The notes beneath the pieces are model-generated. The model was not told where the DNA came from and ran no database searches. It saw only the letters and a list, made by a program, of their open reading frames with translations. DNA of 41,838 nucleotides, taken from positions 1 through 41,838 of the forward strand of contig NZ_JAQTWM010000020.1 of assembly GCF_028689305.1 (NCBI RefSeq). The letters are read 5' to 3'. Each line of letters begins with the position of its first letter. The stretch's first letter is position 1. The DNA is from Rhodoferax sp. Its GTDB lineage: Bacteria > Pseudomonadota > Gammaproteobacteria > Burkholderiales > Burkholderiaceae_C. Shown piece by piece: positions 157 to 10,896 of the stretch. The translations under genes were made by a program, and so were the position numbers.

Positions 157-720
157 TCAAAACCAGGGCACCGTCGCCGTTGGGCTTAAACCATAGGCTC
201 CAAACACGCCAGGGCTTGCGGCATCTTGCAGGGCTCCATGCCGGATGAACAGCTTGAATGACTGCACGGTGCTCAGGCTGCGCAGTTGCACGTAAGGCAA
301 ATCCAGGCGTTCGGCGGCGGTGTCGGGTACACGCGCCAAGGCCTCAGCGGCATCAATGCCGTGGCGGCGCATTTGACGGCGGCGCAGGCGATCCGGGTTG
401 CTTTTGGCCTGCACACGGCTCACCACGCGATAGCGGGCAGTGGTCGGCACGGGCAACACAGCGCTGGCCTGCACATGGTCACGCATGCCTGCCAGCCATG
501 GCGCGGCCATCATCGCGGCCAGCTCGGCTTGGCTACCGTGCAAACGCAAACAGTCGCCCAGCCACGGTGGTGTGTCTCGCATCGCCGGAAAGCTGATGCC
601 GATGTGCTCGCTACGCTGGGCCACCAACGTCAGGTGCAGTTTGCTGAATAAGGCCCCCATCAAATGCGGCTGCGCAATTTCGGGGTCGGGCAGCAACTTC
701 AGGTCAACATAGTGGTTCAT
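157..720 (-). CDS. cas6f: Cas6f (Csy4), CRISPR repeat endoribonuclease
   Basis: Cas6f cuts the precursor crRNA at the base of each repeat hairpin and stays on the 3' hairpin as part of the Csy surveillance complex. The 187-aa product has the family's usual length. Key residues sit at the same positions as in Pseudomonas aeruginosa Csy4: His29 and Ser148 (active site), Arg102, and an arginine-rich helix at 111-119 (Arg114, 115, 118, 119) that grips the RNA stem. It ends in VPWF, also typical. I chose the ATG at 720 (MNHYVDLKL) because family members start there; an upstream in-frame extension would run into csy3. It starts 4 bp after the csy3 stop, so translation is probably coupled. Last gene of the cas operon. 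Confidence 0.96.
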   Translation of the reverse strand: MNHYVDLKLLPDPEIAQPHLMGALFSKLHLTLVAQRSEHIGISFPAMRDTPPWLGDCLRLHGSQAELAAMMAAPWLAGMRDHVQASAVLPVPTTARYRVVSRVQAKSNPDRLRRRQMRRHGIDAAEALARVPDTAAERLDLPYVQLRSLSTVQSFKLFIRHGALQDAASPGVFGAYGLSPTATVPWF

Positions 721-724
721 GGCT

Positions 725-1762
725 TCAGTCCTTGCCAGATTCGCCAAACACGCCACCACGCACCAGGTTGGCCATCACAAAGTGCTGCTGCGCCACGTCG
801 GGCACTTGGTCTTTCAACACCCAGGCATCCAGCAGAGAGTAAAAATCCATCTTGACCTTGGGCTGTCGGTAGGCCTTGCCCTGCGAGGTGACTGAGCCAT
901 AGGGCTCCACCGCAATCGGGATCGTTTGGCTCATGCCGTCATCTGCGGGGTACCAGGTGTCAATGGTACGGATGGCGTTGCCGATTTTTTGGGAGTGCAT
1001 GGCGGCGATGCCGTTCACGGCGTAAAGCGTTTTGCTTTTACCTGCCTTGTCCTTGTCCAGAATCAGCTCTTGTGACGGAAACGCTTCTTGGCCTGCACCC
1101 ACGCGCACAAAGGCCGTCACTTGCAGCAACACATACTTTGAACCGCTCAAGCCTTGTTCCAGTAAGGCCGCCAATTGCGTTAATTCCGCAGAGCTGGCAT
1201 CAAAGTCGCGCAGCGAATGGGCCAGGGCATCAAACGTCCAGCGTTGCACGGCTTGTCCGTCTGCCAACTGGGCGACTTGCACTTCGATTTGCTCCGCGCC
1301 CAAACGGTTGCGCCACAGAAAACGGCCATTGGCCAGGTTGTGTGCATAACGCCGAGCCAGCTCACCAAAGCCCGGTGCTTTTGCGTAGGTCTGCACGGTA
1401 GCCAACAACTTGGCTTGGTAGTCGGCACTATTGCAGGCCGAAGGTGTGCCGGTGCCACCCAGCACGCGCAAGGTGAAGCTGACTTTGAGCGTGTCAGCAT
1501 CGGCTGGCAGCATGCTCACATCCACGGTTTGCAGGTTGGGGTTTTCAATGGCGGCATCAAGCTTGGCCGGGTCTTGGTCTTTGGTTTTGAGACGGTTGGA
1601 AATGGTGCCGCGTACCGACTTGGCCCGCACCTCAACGGCAGGCCAGGTTTGGCTGGTGCTGCGTTGCGCCCAGGTGCCTGCGGCAAAGAGGGCATCAGAC
1701 GGGTCGATCTTGCGTTCAAACGCGAGCACGGAGGCAGTTTTGAGTGTGTTGGTAGTAGCCAT
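725..1762 (-). CDS. csy3: Cas7f (Csy3), backbone subunit of the type I-F Csy complex
   Basis: Csy3 forms the six-copy helical backbone that wraps the crRNA spacer. In the I-F complex its thumbs push every sixth crRNA base out of the duplex, which matters for reading the mini-array at 4236-4315. The 345-aa product starts [18 protein letters not shown], a typical Csy3 start, and contains a FGESGKD-type C-terminus. Recognition is from family resemblance and operon position; I did not map individual RNA-contacting residues. It lies between csy2 (17-bp gap) and cas6f (4-bp gap) on the same strand. Confidence 0.93.
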
Positions 1763-1779
1763 GGTTTAACTCCTTGAAA

Positions 1780-2814
1780 TCAATCGGTAAAAGAAACGGG
1801 GGTGTATGAATCGGTTGCGGGTGCTTGAAATGCATTGACGCAGCGGTACAGACCGCTGGCGGGTGCGTAGTCGGGCCGCCAGGTGAGTTGGGTCATGTCC
1901 GCCAGACGGTGCGGGCTGACCCACTGGCCGATGGAATACACACTCTCAACAAAACGGAACGGCACACCGGTGTCGCGTGCGCCTGCCACTGCACCAGGGG
2001 GGTACAAGTCTGACAAGGCGGCATAGCCCACCGGTATGGGCACCAGCCAACCGTTGCGGCTGTCGGTGGCCCACTCCACCACTTCGGCGGGTTCACCCAG
2101 GTTGGCATCTGGCACGGCTTTGCGGCTGGCGCGGTGGTTGATGCGTGACAGGTCTAGCCATGCGTCCAGCAACGTGGGCGGGGCGGCCTCAACGGGTGCG
2201 CTGGCACGCAGCTCTTCCAGGCGGTTTTGCAACACGTCGTCACGCGACACCAAGGCAAAGCCCGGCAGCCACTGGCGGCTGAGTCGTTTGAATTGCTTGG
2301 CTTGTGCCTCCACATCTCCACCCAACAGCGTCAATTTGGCGCGTGGTGGCCGCCGCAATGCACCATGCAAAGGTGGCATCACACTGCCGCCAGCAATACG
2401 CATGGCGGCAACACATTGACCAGCATCGGCGGCGCACTGGGCACGTTTGGCATCGTCAAGCAAGGCAGCACTCAGCGTCACTTCAAACACCAGGGTGATG
2501 TCCAGATGAACCCGACCTTCTTCCACAATCGCCGCCGTTGAGCCGTCTTGCAACACGGGGTTGCGCGTCAGGCAAAAGCTGCGTGTGTAGCCGCCTTGGG
2601 TCACCTGTGCTTCAAAGCCATGGCATACCACGCCCACACTGTGAAAGCGGATGCCTGCGTCTGGCCCCATGCGTCGGGCCAGTGCGGTCATCAGCCCGGT
2701 GAAGGCGGTGATGGCCGGAAACCCCCAGGTCAACGGGCTGGATATGGCATTGGCGTTTTGCACCCGCAGGCGCGGCAGCACCAGCACGGCGTGTTGCGTA
2801 TGTTCATTCGGCAT
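1780..2814 (-). CDS. csy2: Cas5f (Csy2), crRNA 5'-handle binding subunit
   Basis: Csy2 pairs with Csy1 at the tail of the Csy complex and holds the 8-nt 5' handle of the crRNA. The 344-aa product has the expected length and family features, including the early LVLPRLRVQNANAISSPLTW segment and TWGFPAITAF. Its start codon lies inside the end of csy1 (11-bp overlap, 2804-2814), which is usual for csy1-csy2 and points to coupled translation. No frameshift or truncation is seen. Confidence 0.93.
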   Translation of the reverse strand: MPNEHTQHAVLVLPRLRVQNANAISSPLTWGFPAITAFTGLMTALARRMGPDAGIRFHSVGVVCHGFEAQVTQGGYTRSFCLTRNPVLQDGSTAAIVEEGRVHLDITLVFEVTLSAALLDDAKRAQCAADAGQCVAAMRIAGGSVMPPLHGALRRPPRAKLTLLGGDVEAQAKQFKRLSRQWLPGFALVSRDDVLQNRLEELRASAPVEAAPPTLLDAWLDLSRINHRASRKAVPDANLGEPAEVVEWATDSRNGWLVPIPVGYAALSDLYPPGAVAGARDTGVPFRFVESVYSIGQWVSPHRLADMTQLTWRPDYAPASGLYRCVNAFQAPATDSYTPVSFTD

Positions 2815-4129
2815 GAGTGCCCTCCCGTTCTTGCGCCTTGATTTCTTCCATCATGGCATTGCGCCAAGCCAAAAACTCAGGGTCACCCATGGGTAGCGGA
2901 GGACGCAACTGCGCATTGAGCCAGTTGGCAAAAGCCGCGCAGATGCGCTCAGGAATATCGGTGGGGGGCGCACGATCCAACTCGGTATCGGTCGCTTTCA
3001 CGCCATCGTCATCCAGCCAGCGGCACTCGGATTCAGTCAATTTGCACTGAGGTGTTTGGCTCCAGCCGGGCTCCAGGCTGCGCAGCTCGGATGTGAACTG
3101 CAAGAACTCGTCAATCAGCAGATTGACCCAGGCTGCACGCTTGCTGCGGGTTGCCACATTTCGCGTGGGGTCGGTCTTCAAAAAGGCCAACAGGTCTTTG
3201 ACGGCTTGGCGCACTTCGGGGCGACGGCTATAGCGGTGGAACATTGAATCGGTGTTAAGCAGCGGCTTCAAGTCCGTCGAGCGCCACACCGGTGGCAATG
3301 AGGCCAGCAAGCAGTTGTTGCCCCGGCGCTCACTGTTAAGCTGGCTGATGTTTTGCGGCTTGGTGCCACCCAGTTGCTGAACGGCCATGTGCGGGTATTC
3401 ATGCACCGGGCGCTCGCTGAAGGTGTTGGCTTTGCGGGCATCACGGGCAGCTTTGGCGGCCTCACTGAAACGGTCATCTTGCAGCGTCTCATAAACCCGG
3501 TGCGCCAAAGAGCTGGCGTACAGGGGCGAGAGCAGGTGGTAACTGTCGTCTGCCTGCACATCGTCACCGGTTTGCCAGTAGAGCTGTTTGGCCAGGGTGT
3601 GCGAGGTGACTCGGCCACGCGGCTCGGTGAGCGTGGCAAAGGCCTGCAGCCAGACTTGCGCCTGCGCGGGGTCATCGCTCAAGGCCGCGGCCAGATCGGC
3701 ATCCCCCGCCACAGAAAGCGCCAAGAGGCTGTGGCCTTCGTGCATCTGCTTGAGGAATTTGTACACATCCAGGGCCGCAGCATTGCCGACCACATCGCCG
3801 GCAAAGGCATCACCAAGACAGTGGCTTCCCACCAGCTCAATGCCAGCCAGTGTGCTGGGTGGGCTGTAGAGGTTGGTGCCTTTGGCATCCGGGTGCACAG
3901 GTTTCAGAGAGTGCGTCACCGCCTGAATTTGCGCGGCACGTCGGGCGGCATCTTCCAGCCAGGTTGCGGGGTCGAATTGCTGGCGCAATTTCTCTCTTTG
4001 TAGATTGGCGGCATTGGAATCATTGGCATCTTCTTTGACGGCTTCAAGTTTGTCCTTGTAGCGCGCAGCCAGAAAATCGGTGATCACCGCCCGCAACGCG
4101 GTTACCCGCAGCGGTTTGTTATTTCCCAT
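2804..4129 (-). CDS. csy1: Cas8f (Csy1), large subunit, PAM recognition
   Basis: Csy1 is the I-F large subunit that reads the CC/GG PAM in double-stranded DNA and starts R-loop formation with Csy2. The 441-aa product is close to the usual 430-440 aa. Its position (first of csy1-csy2-csy3-cas6f) and its overlap with csy2 fit the family; the sequence starts MGNNKPLRVTALRAVITDF. The ATG at 4129 is preceded by a GGGAG ribosome-binding site. The gap upstream (4130-4337) contains the operon promoter and the divergent mini-array, so csy1 is the first gene under the predicted crRNA-guided repression. I did not verify the PAM-contact residues one by one. Confidence 0.92.
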   Translation of the reverse strand: MGNNKPLRVTALRAVITDFLAARYKDKLEAVKEDANDSNAANLQREKLRQQFDPATWLEDAARRAAQIQAVTHSLKPVHPDAKGTNLYSPPSTLAGIELVGSHCLGDAFAGDVVGNAAALDVYKFLKQMHEGHSLLALSVAGDADLAAALSDDPAQAQVWLQAFATLTEPRGRVTSHTLAKQLYWQTGDDVQADDSYHLLSPLYASSLAHRVYETLQDDRFSEAAKAARDARKANTFSERPVHEYPHMAVQQLGGTKPQNISQLNSERRGNNCLLASLPPVWRSTDLKPLLNTDSMFHRYSRRPEVRQAVKDLLAFLKTDPTRNVATRSKRAAWVNLLIDEFLQFTSELRSLEPGWSQTPQCKLTESECRWLDDDGVKATDTELDRAPPTDIPERICAAFANWLNAQLRPPLPMGDPEFLAWRNAMMEEIKAQEREGTHAE

Positions 4130-4159
4130 TGAGACTCCCTTCGTTGATTCAAAACATAG

Positions 4160-4171
4160 CCTGAATTCAGG
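4160..4171. promoter_or_regulatory. 12-bp perfect palindrome in the csy1 5' untranslated region
   Basis: CCTGAATTCAGG is a perfect palindrome placed just downstream of the predicted csy1 transcription start (about 4175). Such a site could bind a dimeric repressor. No regulator gene lies nearby, so the role is open. Confidence 0.35.
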
Positions 4172-4181
4172 TTAGACCAAT

Positions 4182-4210
4182 CCTATACCAGTTAACTATG
4201 ATTTGTTGAA
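4182..4210 (-). promoter_or_regulatory. Promoter of the csy1-csy2-csy3-cas6f operon
   Basis: On the minus strand an extended -10 (TGG before TATAGG, box at 4187-4182) stands 17 bp from a weak -35 TTCAAC (4210-4205). The predicted start is near 4175, giving a leader of about 46 nt before the csy1 ATG. The TGn extension would compensate for the weak -35. The call is from sequence only. Confidence 0.55.
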
Positions 4211-4213
4211 ATA
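4188..4213 (+). promoter_or_regulatory. Protospacer-like target of the mini-array spacer, with CC PAM, inside the csy1 promoter
   Basis: The I-F PAM CC (4188-4189) is followed by AGTTAaCTAtGaTTTGT, against the mini-array spacer AGTTAcCTAcGgTTTGT. Positions 1-5, 7-9, 11 and 13-17 match; mismatches are at 6, 10 and 12, then 18-20 and 23-24. Positions 6 and 12 are not paired in I-F complexes, so only position 10 is a real mismatch up to 17. The site abuts the csy1 -10 box and covers the -35 boxes of both divergent promoters. Confidence 0.8.
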
Positions 4214-4233
4214 TTTATTGTTCAAAGTACACT
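4206..4233 (+). promoter_or_regulatory. Promoter of the divergent mini-CRISPR
   Basis: TTGAAA (4206-4211) and TACACT (4228-4233) are 16 bp apart on the plus strand. The predicted start near 4240 falls at the first base of the hairpin of repeat 1, so the transcript would begin directly with the Cas6f substrate. Its -35 overlaps the csy1 -35 on the other strand. Confidence 0.5.
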
Positions 4234-4235
4234 TC

Positions 4236-4315
4236 TCGTACTGCCGAAAAGGCAGTTCAGAAAAGTTACCTACGGTTTGTACTAACCATCAACTGCCGCA
4301 CAGGCAGCAAGGCCG
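4236..4315 (+). CRISPR. Mini-CRISPR: two degenerate I-F repeats around one 24-nt spacer (CreR-like guide)
   Basis: Repeat 1 (4236-4263) matches the array repeat at 21 of 28 positions: the first four bases are lost, but the ACTGCCG/GGCAG hairpin and the 3' handle TTCAGAAA (7 of 8) are kept. Repeat 2 (4288-4315) matches at 18 of 28: the hairpin core ACTGCCGCACAGGCAG differs at one base of 16, while the last eight bases are degenerate. The spacer is 4264-4287, eight nt shorter than the usual 32. The unit is read opposite to the cas genes and to the main array. Parts needed for Cas6f cutting and Csy loading are kept; parts not needed have decayed. It would give one crRNA-like guide aimed at the csy1 promoter. 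Cas-regulating RNAs (CreR) and CreTA units are known in other type I and type V systems; the role here is inferred. Confidence 0.85.
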
Positions 4316-4338
4316 ACCTTGTGTCGGCCTCGCCTTTT
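4310..4338 (+). terminator. Intrinsic terminator of the mini-CRISPR transcript
   Basis: AGGCCGAC (4310-4317) pairs perfectly with GTCGGCCT (4323-4330) around a 5-nt loop, followed by CGCC and four T. It lies directly after repeat 2, so the predicted RNA is about 100 nt. It abuts the cas3 stop codon on the other strand. Confidence 0.6.
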
Positions 4339-7300
4339 CAGGTGTTGTCTTTCGTAAACCCCAGCGCCGGGTGAAAGCGCCAGCCGTTGGTGCTTTCGGG
4401 CAAGCTCAAAGTGCCAAAGCGTTGGGCACATCGATCCAAGGGGATGTCCATGGTGGTAGCCAAATCGGTCAACGCCTCCATGTAGTCGCTCACCCCCCAG
4501 GCTGTGATGTGTTCGCCTTGCACCTTGGCATCTGGAATGCGCTTGTTGTTTGACTTTTCAGCTTCGATGTAAGTCTTGCCCCCACGCCGTCCCTGTTTGT
4601 CGTCTATCACCAAGACGAGCGTGTAGTCATCACCGTCTTCATTGGGGCGCAGTTCCAAATCCACACGTTGCAGCGGGTCGTCTCGGAAAGGTTGCTGCTG
4701 TGGCAACACGGCGGTCAGCAGCGCATCTGCCGGGGCCAGTTGCCACCAACTGGCTGCGTTCAGCATAGAGGAACTGGGAGGCAGGGGCAGCATCGCCGCC
4801 TGCATACGTGCATGTTCCAAGTCCACCAGTCGGCTGCGGGGCTGCAACTTTTCTCGCGCCACGATGCGGGGCCGCGCATCCATCACGGCGACTTCATCAG
4901 GGATCATCAATTGGCCCAAGCTGTGGGGCTGCAAAGGAAACTGTTCTGTTTCAAAGCCGGGTTTGCAAAAAGCGGGCTTACCAGGGTGAGCGAAGTGGCG
5001 CAGATTGGTGTCAAACACGCGAATATTGGGGGTGCTGCATTCACCCTCACGGTGTCGGCGCACCCGGCCCGCAAGCTGGATCAATGAGCGCATGGAGGAT
5101 GGCTCGACCACGGCCCAGTCGTAATCGTGGTCGCGGCCGACCTCAGTGACCGGCGACCCCAGCACGATGAACAGGTGGTCTGGCTCGGGGTTCTCGTCCA
5201 AGCGCTGGCGAATATCCGGCAGGGCAAACACGGCATCGGGCTGGCGGCGATTCAGGGTTTGATCCAACTGGTGCTCAATGGCGGATCGGATCAACAGCGG
5301 AAATTGGGAATGATAGGTACACAGGTGTACGCGCACACCTTCGGGCCAGGGCAGGCGGTAAAGCTCCAGCGCCACGTCCACCAGTGGCCCGATATTGGCC
5401 ATGCGGATCAGACCAAAGCTGACACGCTTGCTACTTTGAGGATCAGGCTGGTGGTGCTTGTTGTGTAAACCAACGGCATGGCGCATGGCTTCTTTTGCAA
5501 AGCCCATGATTAGCAGAGGGTAAGCTTTTTGCCCCAGATTCAAAGTCACCAACTCAGCCCGGCGGCGCACTTCGGCTTTGCCCAGTCGCAATGCCCGTCG
5601 TTTGGCGAAGTTGCCGTGTTCGTTGACAAAACTCGCGCCATCCACACAGTTGGCCTGTTGCACGTCAAACTCATCGACCCAGGCGCAACAAATTTCCGTG
5701 GCCTGGGCCATTGCGCTGGGGCGTTCGCCACGATTGCGCTGGTAGTGCTGGCGACCGTTGCGGTAGGCTTCAAACAGGCCTTGCACCAGGGCCGGTGGCA
5801 AGGTGGCGGATGACAGCAGTACCCGTGCACCCAGCAGGCCAGCCCAATGCACTAGGCGGGTCAGCGCTGGCAGGTCGGCAATGTCGAAGTCATCAGGCTC
5901 GTCCAGCACCAGATCGCCGCTCATCAAGCGCAGCATGGGGGCAATCTGGCGGCCACCGCGTTGGCTTTCTGTGGCAGGGGTCAGGTGGTCGATGGTGCAC
6001 ACCAGCAGGGGTGCCGCCAGCAGGGCGCGGGCGGCGGGGTCGTGCATGATGCGCTGTAGCAAGGGGTGCTCATCGGTGTTGCCGTCAAACACCACATGGC
6101 TGCCTTCTTCCAGCAGTGCTTGGCTTGAAGCTGAGCCGGATTTTTCAGCCTCTCGCTCATAGTGTTCAAACAGTGCCCGGCTGGCGCTGCCGCCCACACG
6201 GATGGCCAGCTCAGCATCGCCCAGCCCCAACAGCTCACCAAACGCCCGACCGGTTTGCAGGGTAAGGGTGCGCAGGCCCATGGCAAAGGCGCAGCGCATG
6301 CCTTGCTCGGGGTCTGCCAGCGCATACATGATGCGGGCATTCGCCAAAGTTTTGCCGCACCCGGTAGAGGCCATGTTGACGATAAAAGCCCCCTGGCGTT
6401 GGCTGCGGTCGCGCATGGCCTGCGCCACCTCGAATGCTTTGTCTTGCCAGCGGTAGCGGGCCTCTTGGGCACGCTTTTTCAACGCCCTGTGGCGAGCCAG
6501 CCGGGGCAGGTTCAACTCAAAGCGCGGCAAGGCGTGGCTGACCTCACTGCTGTGCTGGGCCACGCCCAGCAGGTGTTCGTCCAGCGTCTGGTTGAGCTGG
6601 CCTGCTGGCCCTTGGGTATTCGCGTAAAGCGGGTAGTTTTTCTGACCGGTGACCCGGCCTGCTGCGGGCTTGCCTTTGTCGTCCACGGCCAGGGATGAAT
6701 AGTGGTGGTCTGCCAGCATCAGGCACAGTCGGGACACATGCATCACATACGGGTTGTTCAGCCACTGGCCTTTATCGGGCGACTGGCACAAGGCCAGCAG
6801 TCGCCCAGCCAAACGGGCTGCCCGCTTGCGCCACAAGTCGGTGGTTACGGGCAAGCCGTGTGGAAAGTGCCAGTACAAGGCAAGCTGCTTGTCATCACCC
6901 CCACGATTCAATTCGTTCCAACCGGCATCCATCAGGTGGAGAACATCTTTGAGCGCGTGGGCTGAGACCCAACCAACCTTTTTGCCCAGATAGGTGTTGC
7001 TTCCGGGTTCGGCATCTTTCTCGGGGGCCACGGGCAAGCGGTGATGGGTGACCACCAACCAGGCGATGGATTGCGCCAAAGGTGCCCGCGCCAGATGGGC
7101 AAAGGGCGGTTGCACGGATTGATCCAGACCATCACGCTGCAGGCGACCCAACCAGGTGGCATCGTCCGCAGCAGACGGGTTGGCGAGGCGGGCCAGCCAG
7201 GTGGCATCGTCATCGTCTCCCACAAAGGCTTCAAACAGGCGCAGCGAAACCCATTCATGGCGGTACTGGTTGCGCTCTTGTAATTGCCCAAGCAAGCGCA

Positions 7301-7700
7301 TTTGAAAAGCCTGGCTGGCTTTGCCCAAGTCATGCAACAAGGCGGCCAAGGCGCTGAGCAGGTGAATGTCTTGCCCGGTATGCCAATCGTTTTCATCCCC
7401 CCGCCGCAAGATATTGCGCCGTGTCATGTTGGTGGGCACCGCGCCCTGGCTGTTGAACTGGCTGGCATCTCCCACGATCCACAGCAGTTCGCTGTGGTCT
7501 TGCCCGCGAATCCAGTGGCAGGCCACGGCAGTGTTTTTGCGGGCGGTTTTTTTCAGCAACTGGCGCAGTGTGTCGAGCCCAGCTTGGGTGATGGGCGTTT
7601 GCCAGGTGCGCTCACCGCGTCGTTCGGCGAATTGGTCAAGGATGCGGCGGGTTTCAGTCAGTGCCCGCTTGTTGCACTGGGAGATCAGCAGAATGTTCAT
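4338..7700 (-). CDS. cas3: Cas2-Cas3 fusion (type I-F Cas3), nuclease-helicase with Cas2 domain
   Basis: In type I-F one protein joins Cas2, which works with Cas1 in spacer capture, to Cas3, which unwinds and degrades the target after Csy binding. The 1120-aa product has this layout: a Cas2 domain at about 1-95 (MNILLISQCNKRALTETRR), an HD nuclease domain with HDLGK at 123-127, a superfamily 2 helicase with Walker A STGCGKT near 443, a DEPD box near 600, and an SSAT motif soon after. A conserved GRVRRHREG segment lies towards the C-terminus. All catalytic motifs look intact, so interference should be possible. It overlaps cas1 by 4 bp (7697-7700), so both share a transcript. It ends 208 bp before csy1, where the operon is split by the mini-array. 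Confidence 0.95.
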   Translation of the reverse strand: MNILLISQCNKRALTETRRILDQFAERRGERTWQTPITQAGLDTLRQLLKKTARKNTAVACHWIRGQDHSELLWIVGDASQFNSQGAVPTNMTRRNILRRGDENDWHTGQDIHLLSALAALLHDLGKASQAFQMRLLGQLQERNQYRHEWVSLRLFEAFVGDDDDATWLARLANPSAADDATWLGRLQRDGLDQSVQPPFAHLARAPLAQSIAWLVVTHHRLPVAPEKDAEPGSNTYLGKKVGWVSAHALKDVLHLMDAGWNELNRGGDDKQLALYWHFPHGLPVTTDLWRKRAARLAGRLLALCQSPDKGQWLNNPYVMHVSRLCLMLADHHYSSLAVDDKGKPAAGRVTGQKNYPLYANTQGPAGQLNQTLDEHLLGVAQHSSEVSHALPRFELNLPRLARHRALKKRAQEARYRWQDKAFEVAQAMRDRSQRQGAFIVNMASTGCGKTLANARIMYALADPEQGMRCAFAMGLRTLTLQTGRAFGELLGLGDAELAIRVGGSASRALFEHYEREAEKSGSASSQALLEEGSHVVFDGNTDEHPLLQRIMHDPAARALLAAPLLVCTIDHLTPATESQRGGRQIAPMLRLMSGDLVLDEPDDFDIADLPALTRLVHWAGLLGARVLLSSATLPPALVQGLFEAYRNGRQHYQRNRGERPSAMAQATEICCAWVDEFDVQQANCVDGASFVNEHGNFAKRRALRLGKAEVRRRAELVTLNLGQKAYPLLIMGFAKEAMRHAVGLHNKHHQPDPQSSKRVSFGLIRMANIGPLVDVALELYRLPWPEGVRVHLCTYHSQFPLLIRSAIEHQLDQTLNRRQPDAVFALPDIRQRLDENPEPDHLFIVLGSPVTEVGRDHDYDWAVVEPSSMRSLIQLAGRVRRHREGECSTPNIRVFDTNLRHFAHPGKPAFCKPGFETEQFPLQPHSLGQLMIPDEVAVMDARPRIVAREKLQPRSRLVDLEHARMQAAMLPLPPSSSMLNAASWWQLAPADALLTAVLPQQQPFRDDPLQRVDLELRPNEDGDDYTLVLVIDDKQGRRGGKTYIEAEKSNNKRIPDAKVQGEHITAWGVSDYMEALTDLATTMDIPLDRCAQRFGTLSLPESTNGWRFHPALGFTKDNT

Positions 7701-8695
7701 GCGTCCGCGGCTGGCTGGGTTTGGGCCAGTCGGCCAATCTTGAGCGCCACGACCTTGAGGGTGTCGATCATGAAGTCCAGCGCCTCGCTGCTGGTCAGCT
7801 TGTCAATACAGGCCTGGCGGAACTCCTGCTCGGTGTCACCCCGCATGGCAGAGATAAAGGCCTGGGGCAGGATGGCGGCATCTTTGACCAGATCGGCCAC
7901 ATCAAACACCAAGCCACCGCGCCGGGTTTTGCCGTGCAACACAGCCAGCCCGTGGGGCAGACCCAGTACCCAAGTGGCCGTCGCAGCAAGCCCGTAGGCG
8001 AGATAGTTGCCGTGGTCAAGAAACTGGTTGGCCGCGTCGATGCTGTCGCCCCGCTGGCTGCGCACGAACTCCCCGTATTGCGTGGCTTGGGTCGCCAGCC
8101 GGTAGAGCTGTTTGGTCAGGCGGCCTTCTTCGGTCAACAGCTCGGTTTGGCTCGACGCATTGGCAACACCTTGGCTGGACTGCTTCAGCAGCGCGTCCAG
8201 TTGGGTCATATCGACGGTGCAAGGGCTGTCGCGCAACTGGCTCAAGCTGTGCCATTGCTGGCGCACACGTTGTAGCCGAATTTGCTGGAATTCTTTGGCC
8301 GCAGCAAGGCGCAAGCCGTCGTCAAACCAGAATCGCACCCAGTGCTGCAAGTATTCGGTGGGGCGGTATTCACTTTGGGGGGAAAACCAGGCCACCTCTA
8401 TGTCGATCTCGTTCGCGCTGAACAAGGGCGTGCCGCCACCGCCGCAAAACCCGACCAGCACGCCTGCTTTGGCCAGCTCACGCATGGCCGCCTGGGTGAC
8501 CGACGTGCCCGTGCCCAGCAGAACGGTGGTGGTGTTGGCGATGGGAATGTTCCAGTAAAGAGAGTGTTTGCCCTCGTCGGTGACGTATTCAACGCGCCCC
8601 CCATTCACCAGCACCCGGCAGTGCTCCAGATAGTAAATGTTGGCACGTTGGGAGTGCAGGATGGACTTCAGATTTGAAGCGTCAACAGTTACCAT
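7697..8695 (-). CDS. cas1: Cas1 of type I-F, spacer integrase
   Basis: Cas1 with Cas2-3 integrates new spacers at the leader end of the array. The 332-aa product carries the I-F signature stretches LKSILHSQRANIYYLEH, VNGGRVEYVTDEGKHS, FCGGGGTPLFSANE and, near the end, LPHGLAVLHGK with RRGGLVFDVADLVKD, which holds the usual His and Asp metal ligands. I chose the ATG at 8695 (MVTVDASNLK) because family members start there and an AGGGAC site lies upstream; the open frame runs 37 codons further up but that extension looks non-coding. A CATAAT -10 candidate lies at 8732-8727. This promoter would drive cas1-cas3 apart from csy1-cas6f, so the predicted repression should not reach them directly. Confidence 0.94.
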   Translation of the reverse strand: MVTVDASNLKSILHSQRANIYYLEHCRVLVNGGRVEYVTDEGKHSLYWNIPIANTTTVLLGTGTSVTQAAMRELAKAGVLVGFCGGGGTPLFSANEIDIEVAWFSPQSEYRPTEYLQHWVRFWFDDGLRLAAAKEFQQIRLQRVRQQWHSLSQLRDSPCTVDMTQLDALLKQSSQGVANASSQTELLTEEGRLTKQLYRLATQATQYGEFVRSQRGDSIDAANQFLDHGNYLAYGLAATATWVLGLPHGLAVLHGKTRRGGLVFDVADLVKDAAILPQAFISAMRGDTEQEFRQACIDKLTSSEALDFMIDTLKVVALKIGRLAQTQPAADA

Positions 8696-8785
8696 GCTTG
8701 TCTCGTCCCTGAAATGCGCTGGACAGATTATGGATGTGGATGCCGCGTCACAGCTTGAAACGTTGCCGTGCAGGGTCTTGGCAAC

Positions 8786-8808
8786 AAAAAAGATTGAGCG
8801 GCTCAATC
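8786..8808 (-). terminator. Intrinsic terminator upstream of cas1
   Basis: On the minus strand GATTGAG-CCG-CTCAATC is followed by six T. It overlaps the stop codon of the decayed sbcB copy and would insulate cas1 from transcripts arriving from flp or sbcB. Confidence 0.65.
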
Positions 8809-9078
8809 AATCCCCTTGCGCCGCAATCATCTCCGCGTCGTCATACAACGCGCCCAACACCTCTTCATCCTGTTCGTCAACGGTTTCGGCCAGTTTGCCG
8901 CGCGCATCACACAGCGCAGTCAGGGTGAGTACCTCGCCCTCGCCTTGCAGCAAATGCGCAGCACGGGGAGCCTCTCAGCGGGCGGTTTTCTTGGAGGGCA
9001 GGCTGGCCAACTCACTCAGATCGAGAACCCGCTCCCAGGCCGATAGCTACATCAAGGCCAGGCAGCCGCTCAGGTGCA
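8807..9078 (-). pseudogene. Decayed partial copy of sbcB (exonuclease I 3' end)
   Basis: 8807 to about 9005 aligns with the end of intact sbcB (9432 to about 9630), including its stop codon; the last residues read LGALYDDAEMIAAQGD against LGALYDYAEMIAPQGD. By eye roughly three quarters of bases agree. Upstream, an in-frame TGA breaks the frame, and the sequence then jumps to a part that matches sbcB near 10058-10105 and, after another gap, near 10141-10165. It is therefore an internally deleted remnant, not a gene. Its end meets the stop region of flp. It is either an old tandem duplication or a leftover sbcB allele from another lineage that arrived with the cas genes. Confidence 0.8.
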
Positions 9079-9267
9079 ATTGGTCACATTCGGGGCTGCA
9101 AGACAGGCGCGGATCTTGTCAAACACATCAACCATCGTGTCACGAACCAGGAGCACCGTCGCGGCAACACCCAGGGCAATCAGGGCCGCAATCATGGCAT
9201 ATTCGACGATGGTCACGCCTTCTTCATCACGTAGGAAGCGGCGGGTTGCAGACAGCAATGTGTCCAT
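9070..9267 (-). CDS. Flp/Fap-type pilin, orphan
   Basis: The 65-aa product has the class III signal of Flp pilins: a short basic leader with Gly17 followed by VTIVEY (Glu and Tyr at +5 and +6 after the cleavage site), then a hydrophobic helix AMIAALIALGVAATVLLV. Flp pilins are processed by a TadV/FppA-type peptidase and assembled by the Tad machinery into adhesive pili. The start at 9267 has a strong GGAGGT site. A Cys pair near the C-terminus (residues about 53 and 64) could form a disulphide. No tad, rcp or prepilin peptidase gene is in the window, so it would depend on machinery encoded elsewhere. It sits between the sbcB remnant and intact sbcB. Confidence 0.85.
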   Translation of the reverse strand: MDTLLSATRRFLRDEEGVTIVEYAMIAALIALGVAATVLLVRDTMVDVFDKIRACLAAPNVTNCT

Positions 9268-9385
9268 GATGACCTCCAGGACGGTTACAACAGCTGATGG
9301 CTGACCTGACGGCAGCATCGGCCACACGTCGGCCTCTTGCGCCACTGACGTGGATGCAGTATCTACCTTTCGGGTGGCCGATCAT

Positions 9386-9420: not shown

Positions 9421-9431
9421 CCTACCAGCGA

Positions 9432-10883
9432 TCAATCCCCCTGCGGCGCAATCATCTCCGCGTAGTCATACAGCGCGCCCAATATGGCCTCACCGCGCTC
9501 GTCAGCGGTTTCGGCCAGTTGGTCGAGTTCATCAAACAGCGCGGTCAGGGTGAGTGCCCCGCCCTCACCTTGCAGCAAACGCGCCGCGCGGTGGGCTTCC
9601 CACCGCGCTACTTCCTCGGGGGTCAGGCTGTGTGGGAAATTACGCGCCCGGTAGCGCCACAGCAGTTCGCTCAGCCGGCCATCTTCAAATGCTGGGCGAG
9701 CTTTGGCCAGTTGCTCGGGTGAACTCTGGCGCAAATCGTTAAGCCTGCGCCGGTCGGCATTGCCGACAAAGCCGCCATACAGGTCTTCGTCCACATCCAC
9801 CGGCCCGGCCGCCTCCCGTGCAAACACCTTGGCCCAGATGGCACTCATGTCGGGCAGGTCACGCGCCAAGGCTGCATGCTGCAATTGCGCGGCCACATCC
9901 ACGCCCCAACGTTCGGCCATGGCCGGGCTGAGCACCTTCAGGTTGCTCATCACCATCGGTGACTTGTTCAGGTGGACCGATTTGACCGGCAAGCGGCTCA
10001 AGCCCTCGGGTAGGTCGGCGCTTTTGCTGAACAGGCGCAGGCGGATTTGCTCGGCATTGAGGCTGGCCAGTTCACTCGGGTCAAACGCCAGGTCCCAGGC
10101 CAGCAGTTCGTTTTTGTTGGCCGGGTGCATGGCCAGCGGCCACATCAGCGCCAGGCAACCCCGTTCGGGCGCAAACATGCCGGAGATGTGCACAAACGGT
10201 CTGGCGTGATTCTGAGTGGACGGCAAACCCAGCTCGGCCAGCACCCGGTCTTTTTTGTGCAGGCCAAAACAAAAATCAAACAGCTTGGGCTGCGCGGTTT
10301 TGATCAACCGCGCCAGGGCGATGGTGGCATGCACGTCGCTCAAGGCATCGTGCGCGGACTCGTGCACCAGGCCGTTGGCGGCGGTCAGGTCGGTGAGTTT
10401 GAAGCTGGGTTTGCCTTCGGCATTCACCGGCCACTGGATACCCTCCGGGCGCAAGGCGTAGGCGGTGCGCACCACGTCGAGCAGGTCCCAGCGGCCACAG
10501 TCGTTTTGCCACTCACGGGCGTAGGGGTCGATCAGGCTGCGCCAGAACATGAAGCGGGTGATTTCGTCGTCAAACCGGATGGTGTTGTAGCCCACCCCCA
10601 CGGTGCCGGGCCAGGCCAGGGCTTGCTCGATCTGGCCGGCAAACTGGTGCTCTGGCAGGCCTTTTCCCAAACATTCCTGCGGCGTGATGCCGGTGATCAG
10701 ACAGGACTGCGGCTCTGGCAAAAAGTCATTGGCAGGCCGGCAGTACAGCATGATCGGCTCACCAAGCTGGTTCAAGTCTGCGTCGGTACGGATGGCAGCA
10801 AACTGGGCCGGGCGGGCACGCCGGGTCTGGAGGCCAAAGGTTTCGTAGTCGTGCCAGAGAAAGGTGTGCGTCATACCAACCAT
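9432..10883 (-). CDS. sbcB: Exodeoxyribonuclease I
   Basis: Exonuclease I degrades single-stranded DNA from the 3' end in recombination and mismatch repair. The product (about 483 aa) has the DEDDh exonuclease fold: WHDYETFG near the N-terminus (Asp and Glu metal ligands), VGYNTIRFDDEITRF with a second Asp, and ESAHDALSDVHATIAL with the His and last Asp. The SH3-like and C-terminal helical regions of the family follow. The start is uncertain: ATG at 10883 (MVGMTHTF) or 10874 (MTHTF). Its 3' end was the template for the remnant at 8807-9078. DEDD exonucleases, including ExoI-type enzymes, can trim prespacers for CRISPR adaptation in other systems; a link to the neighbouring cas genes is only a guess. 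Confidence 0.93.
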   Translation of the reverse strand: MVGMTHTFLWHDYETFGLQTRRARPAQFAAIRTDADLNQLGEPIMLYCRPANDFLPEPQSCLITGITPQECLGKGLPEHQFAGQIEQALAWPGTVGVGYNTIRFDDEITRFMFWRSLIDPYAREWQNDCGRWDLLDVVRTAYALRPEGIQWPVNAEGKPSFKLTDLTAANGLVHESAHDALSDVHATIALARLIKTAQPKLFDFCFGLHKKDRVLAELGLPSTQNHARPFVHISGMFAPERGCLALMWPLAMHPANKNELLAWDLAFDPSELASLNAEQIRLRLFSKSADLPEGLSRLPVKSVHLNKSPMVMSNLKVLSPAMAERWGVDVAAQLQHAALARDLPDMSAIWAKVFAREAAGPVDVDEDLYGGFVGNADRRRLNDLRQSSPEQLAKARPAFEDGRLSELLWRYRARNFPHSLTPEEVARWEAHRAARLLQGEGGALTLTALFDELDQLAETADERGEAILGALYDYAEMIAPQGD

Positions 10884-10896
10884 GATCAATTTCTGC

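Follow-up and report, generated by a model that had tools for sequence, protein, structure and literature searches.

A CreR-like mini-array upstream of csy1 in a type I-F CRISPR-Cas operon of Rhodoferax: a predicted guide for repression of the Csy complex by itself

Introduction

The original account of CreR is said to be that of Cell Host & Microbe in 2023. CreR is reported in subtypes I-B, I-E and V-A (PMC13131331), and two further papers speak of it in broader terms, as occurring in Type I and Type V-A (PMC12737573; PMC12948488). CreR of subtype I-F was not present among the literature matches listed, in which PMC9458426 contained only one, unrelated, passage for the terms sought; such cases may nevertheless be included in the original CreR paper or the supplement to it.

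In subtype I-F, a system named CreTA is known from Acinetobacter sp. WCHA45. There, the toxin RNA creT is reported to be repressed by a CreA of 20 nt that acts via the Csy complex, and for this repression the Csy complex is required, while Cas1 and Cas3 are not (PMC10097628). Among the point mutants of this CreA, positions 2-5, 7-9 and 13-17 were essential, positions 10, 12, 19 and 20 were dispensable, and position 1 was partly so; positions 6, 11 and 18 are unpaired (PMC10097628). In an archaeal CreA, the 6th and 12th guide bases are stated to be unpaired (PMC8501985). The term CrePA is used, in the passages available, for a protein toxin repressed by CreA (PMC12737573).

Results

A mini-array and its target in the cas3-csy1 gap

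The window, i.e. the whole stretch of 41,838 nucleotides of Rhodoferax sp. DNA that was analysed, carries on the minus strand (157-8806) a complete type I-F operon consisting of cas1, cas3f, csy1, csy2, csy3 and cas6f, all with NCBIfam matches above the cut-offs. The csy1 gene (cas8f; 2804-4129, minus strand; TIGR02564, 347.5 bits against a cut-off of 169.4) is the first of a block followed in the same direction by csy2, csy3 and cas6f (157-2814, minus strand; TIGR02565, TIGR02566 and TIGR02563), and this csy1-csy2-csy3-cas6f block is the predicted target of repression. A Shine-Dalgarno (SD)-like sequence of csy1, GAAGGGAG, was read at 4135-4142 (minus strand). The upstream neighbour of the gap is cas3f (4338-7700, minus strand; TIGR02562).

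Within this cas3-csy1 gap, a two-repeat mini-array is located on the plus strand (4236-4315). Repeat 1 (4236-4263), whose 3' part is the handle TTCAGAAA (4256-4263), and repeat 2 (4288-4315) both keep the CTGCC/GGCAG stem, and the outer ends are degenerate. The guide spacer between the repeats, AGTTAcCTAcGgTTTGT (4264-4287, plus strand), is 24 nt in length versus 32 nt for canonical spacers. A canonical I-F array, with 32-nt spacers, intact repeats and several units, was thus rejected as the identity of this element, which has one 24-nt spacer and two degenerate repeats. One canonical I-F repeat copy is present at 1-28 of the window (minus strand), and the main canonical array of the same genome is on contig C144 (G000:C144), with a 60-nt period, 28-nt repeats and 10 repeats listed, one of which has a mismatch. 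Downstream of the spacer, a hairpin GGCCGAC/GTCGGCC followed by CCTTTTC (4311-4339, plus strand), which is kept in the nearest relative L006, may be the end of the guide transcript; its stem was absent from the terminator-like sites of the window scan. The RNA of 4226-4345, with this hairpin formed within it, folds far better as a whole stretch than its shuffles (z -4.97).

The guide target AGTTAaCTAtGaTTTGT (4190-4206, plus strand), which lies between the predicted -35 and -10 boxes of csy1, follows a CC PAM at 4188-4189 (plus strand, read in the sequence). A total of 14 of its 17 bases are identical to the guide (positions 1-5, 7-9, 11 and 13-17), and the differences are at positions 6, 10 and 12. 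The score of the pair, counted over positions 1-17 minus 6 and 12, is 14/15. When the 134-nt gap was shuffled 20,000 times with its dinucleotides preserved, and each shuffle was searched on both strands as the gap itself had been, scores averaged 6.59 and rose to 12 at most, so that none reached 13. The first-pass annotation had reported this mini-array between cas3 and csy1 with a guide matching a site from 4190, an exact I-F PAM, an identical seed (1-5, 7 and 8), mismatches at 6, 10 and 12 within 1-17, and a likeness beyond chance; the letters and the shuffles bear out all of this. It had also placed the target inside the csy1 promoter. The location upstream of csy1 stands, with 58 bp separating the PAM from the csy1 start; the promoter is a prediction made by eye that the scan did not score. 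A second guide site with one mismatch at most was not found in the genome assembly of this strain (3.83 Mb, 86.5% complete). The target is flanked by csy1 on one side and by the mini-array and cas3 on the other, with no recognisable toxin gene, and a search of the window that began at repeat 1 and extended 60 nt into csy1 found no SD-preceded closed mini-ORF.

Comparison with CreR, CreTA and CrePA

As far as the available parts of the CreR papers describe these guides, the window is similar in having a degenerate mini-CRISPR beside cas genes and limited complementarity of its guide upstream of a cas gene, and the prediction is likewise an autorepression of the effector that responds to the crRNA level and to anti-CRISPR (Acr) proteins. 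It is different from the known CreR in being of subtype I-F, in its place within the operon, flanked by cas3 and csy1, from which control of csy1-csy4 and not of all cas genes is predicted, and in alternating with CreTA at the same place.

The CreTA of WCHA45, in the passages available, shares with the window the cas3-csy1 gap, the divergent mini-array (psiR1, psiR2), the CC PAM and a partial match with gaps at 6th positions. The window guide is paired at all the positions essential in Acinetobacter, with mismatches only at an unpaired (6) or dispensable position (10 and 12) (PMC10097628). The target of WCHA45, however, controls creT, whereas no recognisable creT stands between target and csy1 in the window (PMC10097628). 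The identity as CreTA was rejected on this ground, there being no creT candidate under the target. With CrePA the window shares a Cas-effector repression directed by a guide, predicted in the case of the window (PMC12737573, in part), and the identity as CrePA was rejected because the gap contains no toxin gene. The first-pass annotation knew of no description of this arrangement for such a locus, and this still holds for CreR of subtype I-F among the matches listed, but not for the place itself, at which an I-F CreTA is published (PMC10097628, from its available part). What is new relative to a CreR-like reading is the kinship of the arrangement to this I-F CreTA, the window being the creT-less form (PMC10097628).

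Survey of related loci

Genomes with a csy1 match numbered 43/399 in the family set, 34/369 in the class set, 21/399 in the order set and 5/89 in the genus set; among named genomes, at least 344 homologues were confirmed by a search with a Csy1 alignment, and 80 of these were kept, whereas a search with the single Csy1 protein yielded 20 pattern matches and no confirmed one. The DNA upstream of csy1 was scanned at 173 loci, 91 from the first set and 82 from the second (the 80 named ones, L114 and L115). Rows removed beforehand were L032 (located where L048 is), L058 (a copy of the window), L089, L097 and L098 (fragments of csy1 that lack a usable 5' end) and L116 and L117 (pieces), and L009 was represented by its duplicate L121 (PAM-csy1 distance 221); the region of L191 is only 147 nt long.

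A match was counted for a repeat-spacer-repeat candidate together with a CC-flanked site scoring at least 11/15; since CC was required by the scan, the PAM of the relatives is no independent test. Matched mini-arrays were identified in 91/173 csy1-upstream regions (43/91 of the first set and 48/82 of the second), and five further array candidates with scores below 11 (L041, L129, L134, L145 and L167) were counted as no match. The distinct regions number 159/173, 80 of them matched, with 14 doubles from the same contig in both sets or from near-identical relatives; a stricter comparison of regions gives six doubles. By removal of identical guide-target pairs, 81 distinct pairs were obtained, in which L173 and L183 are nearly alike. 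In L025 and L043, matched arrays missed by the script were recognised by eye; these two loci are outside the counts and are labelled short in the Csy1 tree. The arrangement must be dispensable for type I-F, because 82/173 regions are without a matched mini-array by the script count, which includes L025 and L043.

Two loci deserve separate description. L012 (same region as L129), within the short-form clade L014-L016, has a short gap and no matched mini-array. In L116 (G1192), of the same genus as the window, a csy1 piece (residues 7-87) with a window-like N-terminal stretch is 86% identical to that of the window and is preceded by three canonical repeats and an apparent IS transposase (by eye); it is taken as a decayed I-F locus.

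Joint change of guide and target

Among the 81 distinct pairs, positions 1-5 match in 81/81 each, and the following positions in 79 (position 7), 75 (8), 70 (9), 75 (10) and 74 (11) pairs, then in 77/81 (13), 66/81 (14), 72/81 (15), 69/79 (16) and 59/77 (17). In contrast, position 18 matches in 20/77 pairs, and positions 6 (16/81) and 12 (15/81) are at chance level, which is an unforced result because the score ignored both. As the detection takes the best of all PAM sites, the positions besides 6, 12 and 18 are enriched by that choice, but the best sites after swapping match there at about 50%, far below the values observed for the own sites. The rhythm of mismatches at 6, 12 and 18 is the 6-nt period of Csy3, which flips out guide bases with this period.

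When guides were placed on foreign gaps (6480 combinations), the mean score was 7.64 and scores of at least 13 were found in 16, and for 75/81 guides the own gap was the unique best target. Within the short form described below, the own median was 14, and 702 swaps gave a mean of 7.47 with at least 13 in 10; the own gap was the unique best for 22/27, and five guides score at least equally in another short gap. The first set had seven foreign scores of at least 13, each of them between guides that resemble one another (76-100% over 17 bases).

In 39 pairs of short-form loci whose guides are similar, the paired positions showed 167 co-changes of guide and target by which the match is kept, 36 one-sided changes and 9 others, and at positions 6 and 12 of the same locus pairs 0 co-changes, 43 one-sided changes and 21 others. 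For all 81 (259 locus pairs), the respective numbers are 1187, 265 and 83 at the paired positions and 11, 255 and 151 at positions 6 and 12; these counts over locus pairs are non-independent events, since common descent links the loci whose guides are alike. The guide-target match is retained by selection across the relatives. The first-pass annotation had regarded independent drift of spacer and promoter in related loci as evidence against its CreR-like reading, and had proposed a search of related I-F loci for covariation of the two: the own-gap preference is the opposite of drift, and co-changes at the paired positions of the short form exceed one-sided changes. Its CreR-like reading gains support from this comparative evidence. 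Because spacers and upstream sites change together across relatives, the guide is likely to be a built-in brake on CRISPR production.

Short and long forms of the gap

The distance between PAM and csy1 is two-peaked, with 27 pairs at 7-95 nt and 52 at 110 nt or more, of which 42 are at 200-290 nt. With L123 and L192, of unassigned csy1 start, counted as long, the short form makes up 27/81 and the long form 54/81. The window belongs to the short form, as do, among named strains, Sphaerotilus hippei DSM 566, Malikia spinosa 83 and Comamonas denitrificans MM2021_4.

An SD sequence with a mini-ORF was detected between target and csy1 in 44/54 long loci versus 2/27 short loci, in which this stretch is shorter, and tandem rare codons in the same stretch in 36/54 versus 0/27 (AGA, AGG, TTA and ATA, whose rarity was assumed and not measured per genome). 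On the opposite strand of the long form, used as control, the numbers were 4/54 and 0/54. Some SD-preceded mini-ORF between repeat 1 and the first 60 nt of csy1 is present in 7/27 short loci. The long form is thus usually a candidate for the published I-F CreTA layout, with a putative creT between target and csy1. The candidate creT mini-ORFs are of about 8-14 codons, with the rare pair mostly at codons 8-9 (AGA AGA, TTA TTA or ATA ATA), and are carried by L007-L010, L013, L022, L027, L029, L030, L037, L053, L059, L079, L120, L140, L142, L163, L186 and others. From their sequences, these candidate RNAs look like tRNA-sequestering ones, in similarity to the archaeal CreT but unlike what is reported of the way in which the I-F CreT of Acinetobacter acts. 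In the short form without creT, the guide consequently aims straight at the DNA upstream of csy1, as in CreR.

The two forms also differ in pairing, although this evidence is weaker. The core match (positions 1-16 minus 6 and 12) was 0.966 in the short form versus 0.924 in the long form (p = 0.001, descent ignored), while at positions 17 and 19-23 the short form matched in 49/114 versus 157/268 in the long form (descent ignored). The difference past position 16 has a Mann-Whitney p = 0.03 (18 versus 47 loci), and in five short loci the target extends into repeat 1. The looser pairing past 16 would fit an adjustable brake in the short form, as against a toxin kept silent in the long form.

Apparent exchange of the gap as a block

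The nearest relative of the window, L006 of the same genus (Csy1 92%), is of the long form, with a different guide that matches its own target at 15/15 and a mini-ORF GTG ACC ... AGA AGT. Compared in steps of 60 nt, window and L006 have an identity of 92-100% within csy1 (below 3957) and of 77-97% within cas3 (above 4317), which drops to 38-68% between 3957 and 4317, a profile that accounts for the uninformative alignment of the two gaps on the csy1 side. Judged from the sequences, the csy1 5' end, promoter, target and guide (about 3958-4317) look as if exchanged as a single block. The csy1 N terminus and the guide of the window resemble those of L119, a short-form locus (Csy1 71% identical in the best segment) in which the layout of the window is kept and position 9 is changed on both sides. 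Of the same genus as the window, L114 is of the long form and L115 is without a mini-array.

In the Csy1 tree (87 rows, by a quick method with 25/84 inner branches unsure; L076, L114 and L119 absent), the window is placed beside L006 among four long-form loci, and at least 10 changes between short and long forms are counted among the mini-array loci, with the CreR and long labels hardly clustered. It seems somewhat more probable than the contrary that the I-F cas3-csy1 gap holds a single exchangeable cassette with CreTA and CreR as its two alleles, in which target, guide and csy1 5' end swap as a block by recombination, so that a lineage flips between addiction and self-restraint with the guide-target matching retained, and in which the guides of self-restraint pair shorter past 16. 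In the state of addiction, loss of Csy would free the toxin RNA; in that of self-restraint, Csy would repress itself.

Predicted promoters around the target

On the minus strand, a predicted csy1 promoter TTCAAC-17-TATAGG was recognised by eye, which encloses the guide target in its 17-bp spacer. The predicted -10 box TATAGG (4182-4187), extended by TGG before it, abuts the PAM, and the predicted -35 box TTCAAC (4205-4210), 17 bp from the -10, is weak (3/6). The consensus scan of the window gave no minus-strand promoter at its threshold and did not score this pair. On the plus strand, the same scan predicted a mini-array promoter TTGAAA-16-TACACT (4206-4233, 9/12), of which the -35 touches the far end of the target. 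In L119, a AATAGGAT block similar to the predicted -10 of the window adjoins the PAM, and TTGATA-16-TACAAT, read by eye, is at the place of the plus-strand promoter. Good -35/-10 pairs on the csy1 strand are located beside the target in L014, L015 and L071. In ten short-form loci only 7-35 nt separate the target from the csy1 start, which leaves too little room for a promoter on the csy1 side of the target.

As a separate observation by eye, L013 and L008 have strong bidirectional terminator-like hairpins after repeat 2, between mini-array and cas3, which suggest that csy1-cas6f have their own promoter within the gap.

Discussion

The mini-array of the window is, with high probability, a CreR of subtype I-F, the guide of which would lead Csy to 4190-4206 and repress csy1-csy4. 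The case for guide function is built on the joint evolution of guide and target, read from sequences, and on analogy with the measured I-F CreA. The mini-array would be transcribed from the plus-strand promoter at 4206-4233 and processed by Cas6f to an RNA with an 8-nt handle, a 24-nt guide and a 20-nt 3' handle. The Csy complex would then bind through positions 1-5, 7-9, 11 and 13-17 without longer pairing; recruitment of Cas3 is thought to need a longer pairing of the guide. The bound Csy would block the predicted csy1 promoter, and possibly the promoter of the guide itself as well, since each of the two divergent promoters has its -35 in contact with the target. The block should be released once normal crRNAs or anti-CRISPR proteins occupy Csy.

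A different history would be that of a leftover antitoxin, i.e. a CreA whose creT is gone and whose match is a functionless relic in decay. The long, creT-like form of L006 at the same place is in line with such a loss, but the whole block of about 3958-4317 looks exchanged with target and guide together, which is no simple deletion, and the 27 short loci keep matches even tighter than the long ones in the core, with similar short guides co-changing with their targets. This test is somewhat weakened by the fact that matches decayed below score 11 are uncounted, but only five array candidates without a match were met, and the leftover is considered improbable. A toxin hidden in the short stretch of 58 bp that separates the target from csy1 would instead make the window a compact CreTA, as could be supposed from the candidate creT RNAs that long relatives carry at this position. 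These 58 bp, however, end in the SD and start codon of csy1 itself and include no SD-preceded closed mini-ORF, and in the short loci as a group such ORFs are rare (2/27) and never have tandem rare codons (0/27), leaving a hidden toxin highly unlikely.

Even with a functional guide, the target could govern read-through from cas3 as a roadblock, or only the promoter of the mini-array, with no csy1 promoter involved. On the minus strand of the window the scan scored no promoter, and csy1 might be reached by read-through from cas3; the short distance from target to csy1 start in ten short loci and the contact of the plus-strand -35 with the target agree with this possibility. Against it are the good csy1-strand promoter pairs beside the target in L014, L015 and L071 and the terminator-like hairpins seen by eye between array and cas3 in L008 and L013, and it is judged quite improbable; its roadblock variant would have the same outcome for csy1-csy4. 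Finally, two-repeat array remnants do occur and self spacers are known, so that a chance similarity or an ordinary remnant with a self spacer might be supposed. The shuffles, none of which reached 13 in 20,000, the spacer of 24 nt in place of 32 nt and the recurrence of this layout, each time with a different guide, among 81 distinct pairs leave next to no probability for it, and a chance match or stray self spacer was ruled out by shuffles and guide swaps.

If the CreR reading is true, a sensor of free effector is built into type I-F, on which much anti-CRISPR work is modelled, and a load of crRNA or the capture of Csy by Acr proteins would switch on more Csy. The dozens of natural guide-target pairs would then report, by evolution, which crRNA positions are read by Csy, namely all but every sixth. 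If the cassette view is true as well, autoregulation and toxin addiction are alternative states of one locus, and why a CRISPR locus carries the one or the other becomes a testable question.

Toxin genes of another kind were observed in some relatives, in which an ORF for a type II toxin is located just after repeat 2, between mini-array and cas3, and reads away from csy1. These are HigB-like in L025 (PF05015) and BrnT in L048 (PF04365) by Pfam, and HigB-like or BrnT-like by eye in L020, L021, L034 and L045; in L172 (2146-2793) the order is cas3, a HigA-like ORF (by eye), a HigB-like ORF, array, target and csy1. Different from CrePA, the guide target in these relatives is still on the csy1 side.

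At the other end of the operon, a direct repeat of 200 bp (80% identity) is present at 8806-9005 and 9431-9630 of the window; the two copies are separated by a small ORF that looks pilin-like by eye (9070-9345). The repeat corresponds to the 3'-terminal part of the gene at 9432-10889, which presumably encodes a protein resembling exonuclease I (sbcB), recurring beside cas1, and is possibly a scar from the arrival of the CRISPR-Cas locus.
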